Part shown: piece after piece, positions 37,542 to 51,491 of the stretch
Numbering within the stretch: the stretch's first letter is position 1
Layout of the letters: each line of letters begins with the position of its first letter
NCBI GenBank assembly: GCA_030446715.1
Contig: JAUJMU010000006.1
Location: 352,501-416,500 of the forward strand
From: Cytophagales bacterium
Lineage (GTDB): Bacteria; Bacteroidota; Bacteroidia; Cytophagales; 172606-1
Reading direction: 5' to 3'
DNA length: 64,000 nt
Notes under the pieces: model-generated
Told to the model about the DNA's origin: nothing
Databases searched by the model: none
Seen by the model: the letters and a program-made list of their open reading frames with translations, nothing else
Position numbers and translations under genes: made by a program

Positions 37542-38057
37542 CGTCATTGCGAGGAGCAAGATTGGAAGGCGGGAAGGGCGACGAAGCAACCTCTTCCGGA
37601 GAATCGGGTAAGCGAACCCACAATCAGCATCAGCCATGAAACACGGCGGGGCAGTTTATATTCTGACCAATAAGAATCACACTACTTTGTACGTTGGAGT
37701 GACGTCGGATCTTCAATCAAGGCTGAATGAACATAAATTAAAGAAGTACCCGAACAGTTTCACGGCCAGATATAATCTTGATAAACTTGTGTATTACGAA
37801 GCTTTTCACAGCATTGAAGAGGCTGTTCTGAGGGAGAAGCAAATCAAAGGAGGCTCCCGGAAAAAGAAAGAGGATTTGATCCGGTCCATAAATCCTGATT
37901 GGCAGGATCTGAATAATAAATTGCTGGATTAATAAGGACTATGTGTTATGGTGTAAAGAGCAGGGGTGGCAACTTTGGCCTGATCAGAGATTCATTTCTC
38001 CGGAAGAGGTTGCTTCATCGCCCTTCCCGCCTTCCAATCCCGATCCTCGCAATGACG
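37542..38057. mobile_element. 516-bp unit: GIY-YIG gene between 62-bp inverted repeats
   Basis: Left arm 37542-37603 begins cgtcattgcgaggagcaaga; right arm 37996-38057 is its reverse complement with 4 mismatches in 62 bp. The only gene inside is the GIY-YIG ORF 37636-37932. The right arm ends 35 bp before the tubulin-like start codon. No clear target-site duplication was found. The arms belong to the cgtcattgcgagga-type interspersed repeats common in Bacteroidota (from memory). Confidence 0.7.
37636..37932 (+). CDS. Stand-alone GIY-YIG nuclease domain protein
   Basis: A 98-residue protein that is almost only a GIY-YIG domain (UvrC/URI type). It has the paired motif AVYILTNKN...TTLYVGVTSDL, an Arg in LQSRLNEHK, a Tyr in LVYYEAFHSIEEA, and the metal-binding Glu in AVLREKQIKGG. 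It ends with a basic helix and a SINPDWQDLNNKLLD tail typical of small Bacteroidota members. Members of this subgroup have no established function. Its placement between two long inverted repeats suggests a role in moving or processing them (inference). Confidence 0.88.
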   Translation: MKHGGAVYILTNKNHTTLYVGVTSDLQSRLNEHKLKKYPNSFTARYNLDKLVYYEAFHSIEEAVLREKQIKGGSRKKKEDLIRSINPDWQDLNNKLLD

Positions 38058-38092: not shown

Positions 38093-39664
38093 ATGAACAA
38101 ATACTTTATCATCGGAATCGGCGGAACGGGCATGCGGTGCCTTGAGTCTTTCGTGCACCTGTGCGCCATGGGCATGTTCGACAACTCCGAAATCCACATG
38201 CTGGCCCTCGACACCGACCTTGAAAACGGCAACTTTGCCCGGGTGCAGGAACTGGTGGATGCTTACGTGAAGCTGAAGGGCGAAAACAAACCCCAGCAGG
38301 CCCACGCCGACACGTTTTTTTCCGCCAAAATCAACTTCTACAGTTTCTCGCCGGATTATTCCCGCACCGAAACCGGCTCCTTCCAGCGCATTGCCAGGGT
38401 GAGTTACGCCGGCGAAACGGAACGCGATCTTGCCAGCCTGCTCTTCACCGAAAACGTGCAGAGCTTCGACCTCAAGCACGGCTACCGCGCCCAGACGCAC
38501 GTAGGTTCGCTGCTGATGTACCATGCCATTCTGGACGAAGTGAACCGGAACCCGGGCGGCCACGTGTCGTCGTTTATTGACGAATTGTACAACGCCAACA
38601 CGGCAGGTACGGTAAAGCTGTTCATTCTCGGCTCTGTCTTCGGCGGCACGGGGGCTTCTTCCATTCCGGTGATGCCGGCAGCCCTCGACACGGCCGTGCG
38701 TAAGCGCCACCAGGGCAAGACCCTGGACAAGCTCTACATCGGGGCTACGCTGCTGACGAGTTACTTTTCGTTCATCTCCCCTACCCAGTCGAGCCGGGAA
38801 GCGCAGCGGGTGGTGGCCGACTCCAAGAATTTCTCCATGAACTCGCAGGCGGCGATGATGTTTTACGAAGATGACCTCAGCGTAAAGCGGGCCTACCAGA
38901 AGTTCTACATGCTGGGCACGCCTACCAACGACTTCAAAACGGAACAGTCCGAAACTGACACCATCACCGGCGGTGCCCGGCAGCGCAACGATTCGCACTA
39001 CATCGAGCTGTTTTCGGCTTTTGCCGCCTACGACTTCTTCAAAACCTCCGATACGGATCTTCAGAAGATCAAGGCCGATAAGAACGGCGTGCAGTACTTT
39101 TTCCGCACAATGGACGAAAGCGGCCGGCTGGACTTCAAGGATTTCCTGCCTGAACACGAATCGTCAGGCGTATTCCTGAAGCGGTTTACCGCTCTGGTGG
39201 CCATGTCGTTTCTGGTCAACCTCGACACGACGGACTTTTTTGCCAGTGCACAGCGGGGCGAACTCAAAAACATCACCGGCTACGAGGACATTTCCAAGGT
39301 CGAACTTGACGCGGCGTACAAATACTTCGGCCTGTTTCACTTCCGCATCAGCAACGACGAGGTGCGGGAAGGCTGGCTTCGGCAACTCTACCGGTCTACG
39401 GGCGGCGGCGACCGGCTCATGTTCAATCCGGAGCTTTTCGGCCTCTCCACGGCCCGCGATTTCCGGAAGTTTGACTACGGAAAACTGTTCCCCAAAACCA
39501 GCGAATACAACCGCCACAATTTCAATTCCGGGCTTTTCTCCAGTCCCTTCGACCGCTTCAAGGAAACCTTCGTAAAGGATACGACCGACAGTGCCTTTGC
39601 CAGCAAAAGTGAAAAGCTGATCAAGCGGATGTACGATGCACTGGTGAAGTTGTACGGGTTTTAG
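38093..39664 (+). CDS. Tubulin/FtsZ-superfamily GTPase-like protein (Tubulin_2 type)
   Basis: A 523-residue cytosolic protein. The N-terminus MNKYFIIGIGGTGMRCLESF has the Rossmann-like first strand and GxGGTG loop. MLALDTDLENGN matches the T3 region. ILGSVFGGTGASSIPVM (about residues 180-195) is a tubulin-signature-like GGTG(A/S)S loop that contacts nucleotide phosphates. The rest (residues 240-523) is less conserved and longer than in FtsZ. Whether it polymerises is unknown. It is on the same strand as the vWA-like, membrane, AAA, actin-like and PP2C genes; the AAA gene begins 96 bp after its stop. Low frameshift density here, in contrast to the region before it. Confidence 0.78.
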   Translation: MNKYFIIGIGGTGMRCLESFVHLCAMGMFDNSEIHMLALDTDLENGNFARVQELVDAYVKLKGENKPQQAHADTFFSAKINFYSFSPDYSRTETGSFQRIARVSYAGETERDLASLLFTENVQSFDLKHGYRAQTHVGSLLMYHAILDEVNRNPGGHVSSFIDELYNANTAGTVKLFILGSVFGGTGASSIPVMPAALDTAVRKRHQGKTLDKLYIGATLLTSYFSFISPTQSSREAQRVVADSKNFSMNSQAAMMFYEDDLSVKRAYQKFYMLGTPTNDFKTEQSETDTITGGARQRNDSHYIELFSAFAAYDFFKTSDTDLQKIKADKNGVQYFFRTMDESGRLDFKDFLPEHESSGVFLKRFTALVAMSFLVNLDTTDFFASAQRGELKNITGYEDISKVELDAAYKYFGLFHFRISNDEVREGWLRQLYRSTGGGDRLMFNPELFGLSTARDFRKFDYGKLFPKTSEYNRHNFNSGLFSSPFDRFKETFVKDTTDSAFASKSEKLIKRMYDALVKLYGF

Positions 39665-46451: not shown

Positions 46452-49400
46452 ATGACCAAATCCCTCCTCATCCAAAGCTCCCAGGTACGCACCGGCGACC
46501 GGGGCAAGTGGAACCGATTCGACCAGCAGAAACCATATATTCAGGGCATCCAGACCGGCGACGTCGCCACCCGCGAGATTGACGCCGCTACGCTGAATAC
46601 GATGATTTCCGGCGTGCCCACGCCCTGGGCCAGAGCCCGGCTGTTTGGCTTTGCCCTCAAATACACGCAGGAAGACCCCAACATCCGCACCACCGGCCTG
46701 ATCAAATTTTACAATTCGCTGGTGGCCGAGTGGAAAGGTTTGATTGCCACGCTGGCCCTGTTCCCCAACCGGATCAAAGTATCGGCTCCCGTGCCGATGG
46801 ATTACGGGAACATCAATAACCTGTATTCCGTGCCTTCGTCGCTGGGACGGATGCTGTTCGACGACGTGGACCTCTGGACGGAACCCGAAGCCCTGCACCG
46901 CAACGACCCCAACATCAAACCCGGCGTGCAGCTGATCTATTACAACGGAAAGCTGATCGGCGGCACTTCCCCGTATTCTCTGGTGTTTCCGGCGGCATCC
47001 TATACCAACCTGCCCGACTCCGGCGACATTGCCTGGTACCGCAACGGCAAGTTCGACGACCCGCTGACCTTCGGCAACCTGGGCCATGACGACCTCAAAA
47101 AGCTGTACCTGCTCGTCAAAAACATTGCCTCGCGCATTCCCGCCTTCGAGCAAAACATCAACCGCAACCGCGCCGGCAAACCTGAATTACCGCTGCTCGG
47201 CCTGCGGGAGTTTACCGAGAAATTTGCCGGGGAAATCAAAGCCAAGGCACCCAATATTGAGGAGACCGGCACGCTGGACGGCGAACTGAACTTCCATCAG
47301 CCCTTCACGGATCTGTTTGCCGTAAAGTCGGTGTACTACTTCCTCAACAATGCTTTTACGCTCAACGAACAGGCCGGGGCCGTGGAAATTGATCCCAAGA
47401 CGCTGCTGCTTGACTCTGAAACCATTTCGCAGTTCTTCACCGAGGACGAGTCGCAGTCCCTCGACGAGGCGCAGGTGTACTACCTGAAAGTCCGCGACCT
47501 TGCCCGCAACGCCGACCTGTACTTCCCCCTGCCGCTGAGCAAAAATGCCGTTCTGCTCTTCCAGAACAATCTCTCCGAACTGCTGCAGGGCCGCAAGGAT
47601 TTTCACCAGCTCTATGCCGAACTGAAGCCCGGTGAATACAAGCTGAAGGTGCGGCTGCGGCTCTACGTCGGCGAAAAGCACATGACGCCCATTGAACGGG
47701 AGTACCGCATTGAGCCGATGGATACGGGCCGCCACGTGATCATGTGGCCTGATTTCATTTCGGAACACTGGCAGAACTACTACCTGTACTCCGAAATGCC
47801 CGTGAACGACACATCCGTCAAGATGGTGCCCTTCTTCAAAACGTGGGATAATTACCAGCTGAAAATCATTACTGACAACCAGCGCAACCTGCTGTACGGC
47901 GATCAGACTTATGACAACGGGATGCACCTTGCCAAGCTCGTGCACCATCCGGTGGACAAAGCTGGTGATCTGCACAAATACGAGGTCTTCCGGTTCAGCA
48001 AGCCGCTGGCCGGACTCGAAATCCGCCGCAACACCGGCGGCCGGGATCAGGTGATCGGCTATTTGGTGGTAAAGCGCCCCGGTGACCAGCTGAAAGACCT
48101 TTCCAGCACCCACACGCCCGAGTACATCCGCAGCCGCAAGGCCATTATCGGCATTGACTTTGGCTCCAACAACTCCTGCCTGAGTTTTTCCATCGGCGGG
48201 GCCGGGGTGAAGCCGTTCGAGTTCCAGAACCGTCGTGTGTTTCTGGTCGGTGCCGAAGTGCTGAGCAATGAAAATAAATTCGCTTCCCTGCACGAGTTGT
48301 ATTTTTTCCAGAACGACCACATCAACAACGGCCAGCTGAAAACGTGGGTACAGCAACATAACCGGCTCAGCGTGGTACCGGGAATGGAAACCGAAGAAAT
48401 CGCCGGAGGACTGCCCGTATTCGATCCCAACATCCGGGTACTGGCCATGGAAAATTCATTCATGCGCACCAACGCCGGAGAATTATACTACAACCTGAAG
48501 TGGCACAACGACGAAGCCGGAATGAACCTCAAAAAAGGTTTCCTGAAAACCCTCTGGCTGAAGCTATGCGCCGAACTGTACGTCAACGAAATGCAGCCTT
48601 CCGAGCTGCGTTGGTCCTTTCCGGGGGCTCTTTCGCCCAAAGACAGGCGGCAATACGGTTTCCTGTACGGAGAAATCTCCAAGATCAACCCGATCCGGAA
48701 TACCACCATCAACCTGTCAGAACAGCCGCTGACCGAAGCCGAGGCCGTATGCAACTACGCCCTGACCAAGGGGGGACTTTCGCTGCTCGGCGACAACATG
48801 ATGGTGGGCCTTGATGTGGGCGGCAGTACGAGCAACGTGCTGCTCGTGACCCGGGAAGGGGGTGAACCGAGGCTTGTGAAACAAAGTTCGCTGCGGCTGT
48901 CGGCCGGAAAACTTGCCGAGGTAACGCAGAAATCGGCGGCGGTACGGGAGGCGATTTACTACTTTGCCACGTCCAACGCCTCCCCGATCAAGGTGATCGG
49001 CGTCGAAGACATGACGCGCAAGCCGGAGATTGCGCCGTACTACCTCAATACCATCCTGGACCGCCTCCGCGGTGATGATTTTGATAAGTTTTACAAGGCA
49101 TTGGCCCAGTCGGGTTCGCCCTACGTGAACAAGACCGAGGCGAGGGCCGTGTTTGCCGTGCCCACGTTTATCTGCGGCCTTGTGCTTTTCTACGCCGGAC
49201 AACTGGCCGGGAAAACCATCCGGGAGCGGAACCTGCAGAATGTCACCACTTTTGAACTTTTTCCGTTTGGCAAGGGCGGCCGCATGTTCGACTGGCTGGA
49301 AAGCTTTATCGGCAAAGGCGATACGGTTGGCTACTACAACCAGTGCTTCAAGGCTGGCTTCGGTGAAGGTTCCGAGAATATCCGGCTGATCAAGGAGGAC

Positions 49401-49865
49401 AAAATCCGCCGCGATAACAAATCGGAAGTCTCCTTCGGCTTGTCAGCCGAGCGGAAAGTGGTGGTGGATGAACGCAGCCGCGACGCTTCGGACCTGTTCG
49501 GGGAAGAGGGATTTGTGTACAATGGCCAGCCGGTAGCGGCTACTGATCCGGTGTTGCCCGAACACCTCGAACGCATTGAACGATTCGACAGCATTCCGGC
49601 CCAATTCGCCAATTTTGAAAAGTTCCTGAAGGTGTTTCTGGACCTTGCCGGACCAAGCGACTCGGGGATCATCGAAAATACGCGGGTACTGCGGGAGAAA
49701 ATGCCGGAACTGCGCCGGATGCTGATCAATTACATCACCTACGATCCTGAGTACATCCATGCCCGTAACTCCGGCGGCAGCTTCGACTACAAGCATTCCC
49801 TGCTGATCCTGATCGGCATGTGCTACCTCGATAATATACTGATTCCGGAGCTATTCAAGGCGTAG
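46452..49865 (+). CDS. 1137-aa protein with an actin/Hsp70-fold ATPase domain
   Basis: The N-terminal 560 residues are of unrecognised type, with beta-rich parts (GEYKLKVRLRLYVGEKHMTP). From about 563 an actin-like core follows: phosphate-1 IIGIDFGSNNSCLSFSI, a mixed section with WSFPGALSPKDRRQYGFLYG, phosphate-2 MMVGLDVGGSTSNVLLVTRE (about 783-802), and an adenosine-loop-like TFELFPFGKGGRMFDWL (about 930). This order and the two DxG loops fit ATP binding. It somewhat recalls SrfB-type virulence-factor proteins, but identity is not established. No signal peptide. The gene is intact for 3.4 kb, and its 5' end is duplicated at 44121. Proposed core ATPase of the cluster with the tubulin-like and PP2C proteins. 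Confidence 0.8.
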   Translation: MTKSLLIQSSQVRTGDRGKWNRFDQQKPYIQGIQTGDVATREIDAATLNTMISGVPTPWARARLFGFALKYTQEDPNIRTTGLIKFYNSLVAEWKGLIATLALFPNRIKVSAPVPMDYGNINNLYSVPSSLGRMLFDDVDLWTEPEALHRNDPNIKPGVQLIYYNGKLIGGTSPYSLVFPAASYTNLPDSGDIAWYRNGKFDDPLTFGNLGHDDLKKLYLLVKNIASRIPAFEQNINRNRAGKPELPLLGLREFTEKFAGEIKAKAPNIEETGTLDGELNFHQPFTDLFAVKSVYYFLNNAFTLNEQAGAVEIDPKTLLLDSETISQFFTEDESQSLDEAQVYYLKVRDLARNADLYFPLPLSKNAVLLFQNNLSELLQGRKDFHQLYAELKPGEYKLKVRLRLYVGEKHMTPIEREYRIEPMDTGRHVIMWPDFISEHWQNYYLYSEMPVNDTSVKMVPFFKTWDNYQLKIITDNQRNLLYGDQTYDNGMHLAKLVHHPVDKAGDLHKYEVFRFSKPLAGLEIRRNTGGRDQVIGYLVVKRPGDQLKDLSSTHTPEYIRSRKAIIGIDFGSNNSCLSFSIGGAGVKPFEFQNRRVFLVGAEVLSNENKFASLHELYFFQNDHINNGQLKTWVQQHNRLSVVPGMETEEIAGGLPVFDPNIRVLAMENSFMRTNAGELYYNLKWHNDEAGMNLKKGFLKTLWLKLCAELYVNEMQPSELRWSFPGALSPKDRRQYGFLYGEISKINPIRNTTINLSEQPLTEAEAVCNYALTKGGLSLLGDNMMVGLDVGGSTSNVLLVTREGGEPRLVKQSSLRLSAGKLAEVTQKSAAVREAIYYFATSNASPIKVIGVEDMTRKPEIAPYYLNTILDRLRGDDFDKFYKALAQSGSPYVNKTEARAVFAVPTFICGLVLFYAGQLAGKTIRERNLQNVTTFELFPFGKGGRMFDWLESFIGKGDTVGYYNQCFKAGFGEGSENIRLIKEDKIRRDNKSEVSFGLSAERKVVVDERSRDASDLFGEEGFVYNGQPVAATDPVLPEHLERIERFDSIPAQFANFEKFLKVFLDLAGPSDSGIIENTRVLREKMPELRRMLINYITYDPEYIHARNSGGSFDYKHSLLILIGMCYLDNILIPELFKA

Positions 49866-50208
49866 GAGGTTTGTATGTTAGCCTGAATGAATATATTGTT
49901 GAGGATTTCTTTTCACACGGGCCGGGTCATCCCGAAAAAAACGAAGTTCAGCCCAGTAGTTGTGAAAGCAATCTTCTCGACCGAAGAAAATCAGCACTTT
50001 CCACTACGAAGATCCTTTCAGGATGACGGTTCTTTTCAGGAATGAAAACTTTGCAACAAGACTAATAAAATAAAAAGCAATACCGCCTGCCCTGTCCCCA
50101 CAAGATTGTCATCCTGAAAGGATCTTCGTAGTGAAAAACAGAGTTTTTCTGATCACTGCCAAGCCCCTTCCAGGATGACAGAAGGATGTCCTTAAAATAA
50201 CCACCCAC
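49866..50208. repeat. Interspersed gtcatcctgaaaggatc repeats upstream of GIY-YIG gene 2
   Basis: A 26-bp unit cactacgaagatcctttcag... (50002-50027) is followed in inverted orientation at 50108-50133 (gtcatcctgaaaggatcttc...). A weaker piece (ccttccaggatgaca) is at 50166-50180, and another cousin (gggtcatcccgaaaa) at about 49924. No gene is supported here. Confidence 0.8.
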
Positions 50209-50496
50209 TTGCAAAGCTTTTTTGTCTATATCACTTCCAATCCTGGCAGGACGACATTATACGTGGGCGTAACCAATGATTTAGTGCGCCGGATTGAAGA
50301 ACACCGGAGCAACCGGGGTGATTGTCGGACATTTGCTGGCAGGTATTATTGCTACGATCTGCTGTATTTTGAAGAATATCCCAATGTGCAAACTGCGATT
50401 TATCGGGAAAAAGAAATTAAACTCCTGAACAGATCAGCCAAGGAAAGCTTGATTAAAATCAGCAATCCGGAATTTGCCACCATAAAAATCTATTAA
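50209..50496 (+). CDS. Stand-alone GIY-YIG nuclease domain protein, second type
   Basis: A 95-residue GIY-YIG domain: SFFVYITSNPGRTTLYVGVT, Arg in LVRRIEEHRSNRG, YYCYDLLYFEEYPNVQTAI, Glu in AIYREKEIKLLNRS. TTG 50209 is the only plausible start in frame (a stop lies upstream). It differs clearly from the 37636 protein (about 35-40% by eye) and has different repeats around it: inverted copies of the 26-bp unit at 50108-50133 and 50548-50573. Function unknown; a link with the repeats is inferred. Confidence 0.85.
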   Translation: MQSFFVYITSNPGRTTLYVGVTNDLVRRIEEHRSNRGDCRTFAGRYYCYDLLYFEEYPNVQTAIYREKEIKLLNRSAKESLIKISNPEFATIKIY

Positions 50497-50547
50497 AATC
50501 ACTAAGAATCCTGAATGAGTCTGCCGGAAAAAACGATACACTGTCTT

Positions 50548-50573
50548 CACCACGAGGATCCTTTCAGGATGAC
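50548..50573. repeat. Downstream copy of the gatcctttcaggatgac repeat
   Basis: accacgaggatcctttcagg... is in inverted orientation to the copy at 50108-50133, so the GIY-YIG gene sits between inverted copies. Confidence 0.8.
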
Positions 50574-50711
50574 GGCTGTTTGATCCTCTGGATTTTAAGC
50601 CGGCAGGCTAAAATTAATCAGATGGTCTGATTCTATTGACAAATCGGTTACCTGAAATTTTAAATTGAATAACCAACAATCACTAACATATCATCACTAA
50701 CTCCCTTTCCC

Positions 50712-51491
50712 TTGCTTTCCCGCCTGCTCAATACCTTCGGCTCTTTTGGCAAACCTGCCTTTGCGGTGCAGTCTTACTCCGTTGCCGGCAAAAAGCCGGT
50801 CAACGAAGACAGCCTGCTGATCCTGCAGAAAAAGAAGGTGGCGCTGATGCTGGTAGCGGACGGCGTAGGCGGACACGGGCACGGCGACTGGGCCAGCGGG
50901 TTGTGCGTGGAGCATTTCCGCAATGCATTCGACAAAACGAACCACCTGAATGATCCGGAGGCTTTCCTGAAGGAAAATACGCTTTCAGTAGCCCGGCAGG
51001 TATGGCAGTACGGGCAGGAAGATCCGGCATACCGCAATGCGGGCACTACCCTCACGGGGTTTCTGGTAATTGAAGACGCCTACCACACCGTGAACCTCGG
51101 CGACAGCCGCAGCTATCTGTATCACCCGCAGAAGGGGCTGCGCCGCCTGACCAAAGATCATTCTATGGTGCAGGAAATGATTGACGCAGGTACTTTGACG
51201 GAAGAAGAATCTCTGACCCATCCCTACCGCGCCCGTATGACCTCCGCCATCGGTCAGCCGCCCGATACACTCAGGCTTGATATCAAGGGGCCGTTTCAAC
51301 TTCACCCCGGGGAGTGGCTTCTCAGCTTTTCTGATGGTGTCCACGATTTCCTGACCGACAGCGAAATTCTGAAGATCGTGCAGGAGGGAACAGAAAACAC
51401 GGCGCAGACACTGGTGGAGAAATCGCTTGGGCAGGGCAGCAATGACAATATCACTGCCTGTATTCTGAAACAGAACCGGAATCCGGTTTAA
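50712..51491 (+). CDS. PP2C-family protein phosphatase
   Basis: A 259-residue metal-dependent Ser/Thr phosphatase. Motifs in order: SVAGKKPVNEDSLLI, LMLVADGVGGHGHGDWASGL, GTTLTGFLVI, VNLGDSRSYLY, LTKDHSMVQEMIDAGTLTEE, WLLSFSDGVHDFLTD, GSNDNITACIL; the metal-binding Asp residues are all present. A stop in frame at 50670 leaves TTG 50712 as the first usable start. It is the last same-strand gene of the cluster beginning at 35565. In related gene neighbourhoods PP2C enzymes counter a kinase; no kinase gene is visible in this window. Confidence 0.93.
   Translation: MLSRLLNTFGSFGKPAFAVQSYSVAGKKPVNEDSLLILQKKKVALMLVADGVGGHGHGDWASGLCVEHFRNAFDKTNHLNDPEAFLKENTLSVARQVWQYGQEDPAYRNAGTTLTGFLVIEDAYHTVNLGDSRSYLYHPQKGLRRLTKDHSMVQEMIDAGTLTEEESLTHPYRARMTSAIGQPPDTLRLDIKGPFQLHPGEWLLSFSDGVHDFLTDSEILKIVQEGTENTAQTLVEKSLGQGSNDNITACILKQNRNPV

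Follow-up and report, generated by a model that had tools for sequence, protein, structure and literature searches.

Small GIY-YIG nuclease genes flanked by matched CGTC-type REP hairpins in a Cytophagales bacterium and its relatives: a putative RAYT-like mobile unit

CGTC-tagged REPs, which occur in Alphaproteobacteria, Bacteroidetes and other bacteria, were defined by Di Nocera et al. in 2013 and were said to "apparently lack a dedicated transposase" (PMC3733652). They have an unpaired CGTC, TGTC or CCTC end, a stem of 8–9 bp that opens with complementary AT and a loop of 4–5 nt, and are found in many copies, mostly as opposite-orientation dimers. The Neisseria dRS3 and Rickettsia RPE repeats are members of this CGTC group. 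The REPtron/RAYT (TnpA-REP) system consists of a small enzyme gene between inverted tagged hairpins, which are also dispersed as intergenic doublets; its enzyme is an HUH Y1 protein of the IS200/IS605-like kind and its tag is GTAG. According to one account of the RAYTs, the enzyme groups have co-evolved with their REPs (PMC8266576). Full-text searches of an open-access library found no paper tying GIY-YIG proteins to CGTC-type repeats; earlier publication elsewhere is possible. GIY-YIG is not mentioned in a 2025 survey of REPs.

The DNA analyzed here ("the window") is a stretch of 64,000 nt from a Cytophagales bacterium (contig JAUJMU010000006.1). It contains two elements, A and B, in each of which a hairpin repeat, present as inverted copies, encloses a small GIY-YIG gene (Table 1). 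Element A reads GTCATCCTGAAAGGATCTTCGTAGTGAA / gene / TTCACCACGAGGATCCTTTCAGGATGAC, its GTC tags pointing outward, and its two flanking copies form a 28-nt inverted pair that is 93% complementary. The original prediction of a 95-aa GIY-YIG gene with a TTG start between inverted repeats was confirmed; the third repeat copy which it placed upstream is present, and is in addition one half of a decayed doublet. The plan is that of a REPtron, with the enzyme flanked by its cognate REPs; it differs from REPtrons in having a GIY-YIG protein, a GTC/CGTC tag and a stem that begins with AT.

Table 1. Features of elements A and B (positions in the window; +, forward strand; −, reverse strand;., no strand assigned)
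Feature	Position	Strand	Description
Upstream REP of element B	37542..37603	+	GTCATTGCGAGG...GACGAAGCAACC; one arm of 62-nt inverted pair, 94%
Predicted GIY-YIG nuclease gene B	37636..37932	+	98 aa, sharing 39% identity with A
Downstream REP of element B	37996..38057	-	Other arm of 62-nt inverted pair
Older decayed REPIN-like doublet	49925..50027	.	Left arm GTCATCCCGAAAAAAACGAAG; fold unstable, z -0.55
Third REP copy	50002..50027	-	Right half of decayed doublet starting near 49925
Upstream REP of element A	50108..50135	+	GTC tag outward; hairpin GTC-ATCCT-gaa-AGGAT-C + tail TTCGTAGTGAA
REPIN-like inverted doublet upstream of gene A	50108..50180	.	73 nt; ssDNA fold -16.7 kcal/mol, z -5.6
Degenerate REP (fourth copy)	50154..50180	-	Closes REPIN-like doublet 50108-50180
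Predicted GIY-YIG nuclease gene A	50209..50496	+	ORF, 95 aa, TTG start; residues 72-74 = LLN
Downstream REP of element A	50546..50573	-	GTC tag outward; with 50108-50135 bounds REP-gene-REP unit, 466 bp

Element B (37.5–38.1 kb) follows the same plan with a TTGCGAG-type repeat, the first 15 bases of which, allowing up to one mismatch, recur at five further places in the genome. Residues 71–75 read KGGSR in gene B and KLLNR in gene A. The two repeats had been predicted to be of different families. This holds for stem and loop (CCT vs TTGC); at a higher level they share the frame GTC-ATxyz...z'y'x'AT-C and belong to one superfamily. Genes around the elements appear to encode tubulin/FtsZ-like (38093-39664; GIGGTG), Hsp70/actin-like (46452-49865; GIDFGSNNS) and PP2C-like phosphatase (50712-51491) proteins, named from ORF motifs only.

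The product of gene A matches the Pfam GIY-YIG model PF01541 (E 4e-14; 53 bits vs a cut-off of 22.6) and, under that model's cut-off, T5orf172. The HUH motif and catalytic tyrosine of RAYT-type and IS200/IS605 transposases were absent from its Pfam matches, and no NCBIfam model matched it. Residues conserved in the family and present in gene A are Y7, Y18, G20, R28, H32, E67, K71 and N86, K78 being among the conserved positions as well; Y7, Y18, G20, R28 and E67 are kept in at least 99% of 192 proteins. With the GIY...YIG tyrosines and the catalytic Arg and Glu in place, the protein is predicted to be a nuclease. Its AlphaFold2 model (pLDDT 97) was nearest to UPF0213 protein BH0048 (PDB 1zg2) and then to Slx1. 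Slx1 is a nuclease of branched DNA, and the modeled fold might suit hairpin or cruciform substrates. Fold and conserved catalytic residues are shared with the UPF0213/YhbQ-YazA/Slx1-like nucleases, from which this subfamily differs in its REP flanks and, mostly, in an N-P motif (N86 P87) in the C-terminal region. The two genes of the window are the only small GIY-YIG genes in the genome; the two remaining GIY-YIG matches are open frames of 613 aa (UvrC-like) and 478 aa, near which no REP hairpins of the GTCAT type were found.

The repeat of element A, GTCATCCTGAAAGGATC, is present in the window as three exact copies and one with 3 mismatches, compared to 0.2 expected from shuffled sequence, and genome-wide as 13 copies with up to 2 mismatches, compared to none for the reversed pattern, a modest copy number. 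Elsewhere in the genome it forms inverted doublets of 70–72 bp, all intergenic, on contigs C4 (two), C11, C18 and C21; two inverted REPs separated by a variable core of about 20 bp look like a REPIN. In Rfam the inverted repeat gave only sub-threshold matches to plant miRNAs, which were dismissed as chance. Like the published CGTC-tagged REPs (PMC3733652), the repeats have a CGTC or TGTC tag (TGTC at 50107-50110; CGTC on the reverse strand at 50025-50028 and 50571-50574), open the stem with complementary AT and form opposite-orientation dimers. Many of the Bacteroidota types have shorter stems and longer loops than the published ones. With a stem of 5 bp and a loop of 3 nt, the repeat of element A is filed as a shorter-hairpin relative and is not counted strictly among the four published families. 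Alphaproteobacterial copies carry the CGTC tag; those at loci such as L207 and L209 fit the published stem and loop lengths and match CGTC-tagged REPs (CGTCATTCCCGCGCACGCGGGAATCCA, CCA tail included).

The reading that we favor, at a probability of about 0.7, is that REP, GIY-YIG nuclease gene and REP constitute an IS-like unit, the nuclease recognizing its cognate CGTC-type hairpin and spreading REPs and REPINs in the manner of a RAYT with an unrelated enzyme.

Three sources supplied relatives of the enzymes: 80 named genome contigs, 395 same-class genomes and 190 alphaproteobacterial genomes. A loose, mismatch-tolerant hairpin search would have been too unspecific (about one chance match per 380 bp per strand), and a strict rule was therefore used throughout: GTCAT, three bases, a loop of 3–45, the complementary three bases and AT. 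A gene was scored as flanked when a strict hairpin lay within 300 bp on both sides, and other ORFs of the same 10-kb loci served as controls. By this rule, which undercounts REPs with altered tags, hairpins were found on both sides of 93 of 165 enzyme genes (56%) and of 4 of 226 neighboring ORFs (1.8%; p 1e-38); the repeats are thus not equally frequent near random genes. In a larger set both sides were flanked at 126 of 263 genes and at least one side at 196, about a quarter having no strict hairpin; some of the latter have REPs with altered tags (GTCCT, GTGAG, CGTCGCC). When the proteins were clustered at 55% identity, hairpins on both sides were still present for 20 of 54. Hairpin density was approximately 5 per kb beside the enzyme gene vs 0.2 per kb a few kb away.

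The complementarity of the stems is not an artefact of the strict rule, since in a rule-free count a complementary stem followed 562 of 950 GTCAT words near enzyme genes (59%), compared to 53 (6%) in a reversed control; far from enzyme genes the values were 15% and 7%. In a sister group of small GIY-YIG proteins, which shares the domain and mostly lacks the C-terminal N-P motif, both flanks carried hairpins in 0 of 28 cases and either flank in 2 of 28; the association is therefore a property of one subfamily and does not extend to GIY-YIG genes generally. Of 131 nearest REP pairs, 64 had both tags facing outward, a figure lowered in part by intervening doublets and arrays. Regular long REP arrays, BIME-like, enclose some of the enzyme genes (flanks of L037, L064, L123, L143 and L174). 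The L037 array alternates TTGC and CGC types, and heterodimers of two stem types are common.

Repeats and enzymes also co-occur at the level of the genome. TTGC REPs were present in at least five copies in 22 of the 25 same-class genomes that have a close B-type enzyme vs 74 of the other 370 (395 genomes), and the canonical CGTC REP GTCATTCCCGCGNANGCGGGAATC, with up to one mismatch, in at least four copies in 13 of 54 alphaproteobacterial genomes with an enzyme vs 2 of 136 without (190 genomes), in counts that include gene-adjacent copies and tests that ignore phylogeny. TTGC-REP-rich genomes without a close enzyme (16 of 395) fit loss of the enzyme, persistence of REPs without it, or service by another enzyme. 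A good candidate for an orphan REP population is one genome of the class set (G047), with 424 TTGC-type REPs, the maximum of the set, and no detectable close GIY-YIG enzyme.

From the pairing of enzyme and repeat types in the window, matched specificity had been suggested; the comparison of relatives supports it across families, orders and phyla. The two flanks of a gene had a common stem triplet in 63 of 101 cases, compared to 13 by permutation, and protein identity correlated with repeat stem (Mantel r 0.42, permutation maximum 0.07). The stem triplet was shared by approximately 12% of pairs at 40–50% protein identity, 60% at 60–70% and 97% at 70–80%. Among pairs from different NCBI orders the values were 3–10% below 50% identity, 77% at 60–70% and 8 of 8 above 70%; for such pairs with an identity of at least 0.55 the shared fraction was 0.55, vs 0.20 permuted (maximum 0.35). 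Pairs from different families followed the trend too, and r was 0.19 (permutation sd 0.03) when Alphaproteobacteria were compared with everything else. Taxonomy does not explain the match. Paralogs of the same genome shared a stem in 1 of 8 cases below 60% identity and in 5 of 5 above 70%; two alphaproteobacterial genomes, G405 with six enzyme matches and G406 with about nine, have paralogs between several different REP types. On a FastTree tree, REP type required 64 changes, compared to 105 after shuffling (minimum 98). A single repeat family for each protein clade, the pattern that had been proposed as support for matched pairs, is a strong tendency and not a strict rule.

These data bear on the proposal that REP-rich intergenic regions are permissive landing sites in which the nuclease gene is a passenger, the match reflecting shared descent of one stretch of DNA. 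Linked inheritance alone can correlate protein and repeat in close relatives, and REPs also enclose a small number of other ORFs, but the match persists across orders and phyla, different paralogs of one genome carry different REPs, REPs at unlinked genomic sites vary together with the enzyme, and the sister GIY-YIG group is placed otherwise. We regard such hitchhiking as very improbable.

The alignment columns most informative on REP type were 72–74, beside catalytic E67 and K71. Gly73 accompanies GCGA-type REPs (48 of 55 with TTGC, 9 of 9 with CGC) and Trp73 nearly all others; the residue is Lys in the CAGAG type (Balneola group) and Leu in gene A and its relatives; very short loops occur in several of these. 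Because shared ancestry inflates the signal, the relation between residue 73 and REP type is a starting point for mutagenesis rather than a code. The middle base of the stem triplet was rejected as a code for residue 73: long-hairpin TGC and GGC stems accompany Trp, and Gly occurs with the GCGA type alone.

Mobility of the unit was assessed at a syntenic site and from duplicated copies. In a congener (G002) the genes that border element A (identity 92% for the upstream gene and 71% for PP2C) are separated by 172 bp with no GIY-YIG gene, and the gap retains a decayed REPIN core, CTTCGTAGTGAAA...TTTCACTACGAAG, compatible with insertion or loss. The Hsp70/actin-like and PP2C-like genes are neighbors in this genome also. 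In each of three genomes (G287, G405 and G406) a unit occurs twice, and the DNA around its two copies is otherwise different. In G287 (L136 and L121) similarity opens at TGTCATTTCG and ends at CGAAATGACAT, exactly at the GTC tags; in G405 and G406 it runs 20–50 bp past the tags on one or both sides. Homology of the duplicated copies is largely confined to the repeat-to-repeat unit. No target-site duplication was identified in these copies, and no transposition event was seen.

A homing-type selfish gene would account for part of this: the nuclease would cut REP-less or REP-bearing alleles, gene and flanks would be copied in by recombinational repair, and the REPs would serve the nuclease for recognition or landing without being spread by it. 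GIY-YIG is a homing-endonuclease fold, gene B weakly matches TIGR01453 (group I intron endonuclease) below the cut-off, one syntenic site with a retained REPIN core has the gene in one genome and lacks it in another, and insertion of a gene beside pre-existing REPs would give identical anatomy. The fold and a selfish-looking distribution are shared with homing endonucleases of the I-TevI and SegA kind; unlike these, gene A is without intron or intein and encodes 95 aa without a separate DNA-binding domain, and the putative target of its product is apparently its own flanking hairpin. Homing alone would not spread gene-less REPINs, and such REPINs of 70–72 bp, their ends intact, are found at unrelated intergenic locations of the same genome; the presence of the enzyme predicts their number. 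Pure gene homing is therefore disfavored and considered unlikely, though the least so of the alternatives.

Alternatively, the REPs could be control sites useful to the host, acting as terminators, mRNA stabilizers or autoregulatory operators of a toxic nuclease that would bind them for self-regulation only. They form hairpins close to the ends of the gene, at a median of 37 bp upstream of the start and 19 bp downstream of the stop. Matched REPs at many other loci, the co-occurrence across genomes and duplicated units that end at the tags are left unexplained by such a function, to which we give the least weight of all.

A separate arrangement was observed in another genome (G115:C9:906067-910389; L342, L348 and L351), in which ten unit copies with a different 95-aa GIY-YIG ORF lie head to tail, 457 bp apart. 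The tandem unit includes the apparent 3' half of a tRNA (GGTTCGAGTCCTGTCCCCGCTAC), and there are no REP hairpins around it; it is possibly a tRNA-targeting GIY-YIG element.

Under the favored reading of a mobile REP-nuclease-REP unit, the nuclease would bind the hairpin of its own REP type, made up of the GTC tag, the AT-initiated stem and a variable inner stem and loop, when this forms in single-stranded or cruciform DNA, and would cleave it at the tag. Whatever lies between a pair of outward tags would then be copied out or pasted in, the full REP-gene-REP unit as such and the gene-less 70–72 bp REPINs in trans, with the enzyme rather than host factors presumably driving the spread. Enzyme and REP co-diverge, and several pairs can therefore stand side by side in one genome, as CCT and TTGC do here. 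With somewhat less confidence than in this reading itself, we think it fairly probable that the units represent a new class of prokaryotic mobile element, in which a lone nuclease of about 95 aa reads a hairpin through the patch at residues 72–74, with many specific pairs co-existing, and which supplies the missing mobilizer of CGTC-type REPs across many phyla.

CGTC-type REPs are widespread in bacteria, and the question of their mobilizer dates from 2013; with a matched GIY-YIG enzyme it can be put to a direct test. If the proposal is true, the many pairs would form a natural set of small nucleases and hairpins for studying the recognition of DNA structure and sequence by a protein of 95 aa, and the REP/REPIN way of life would have had a second, independent origin.
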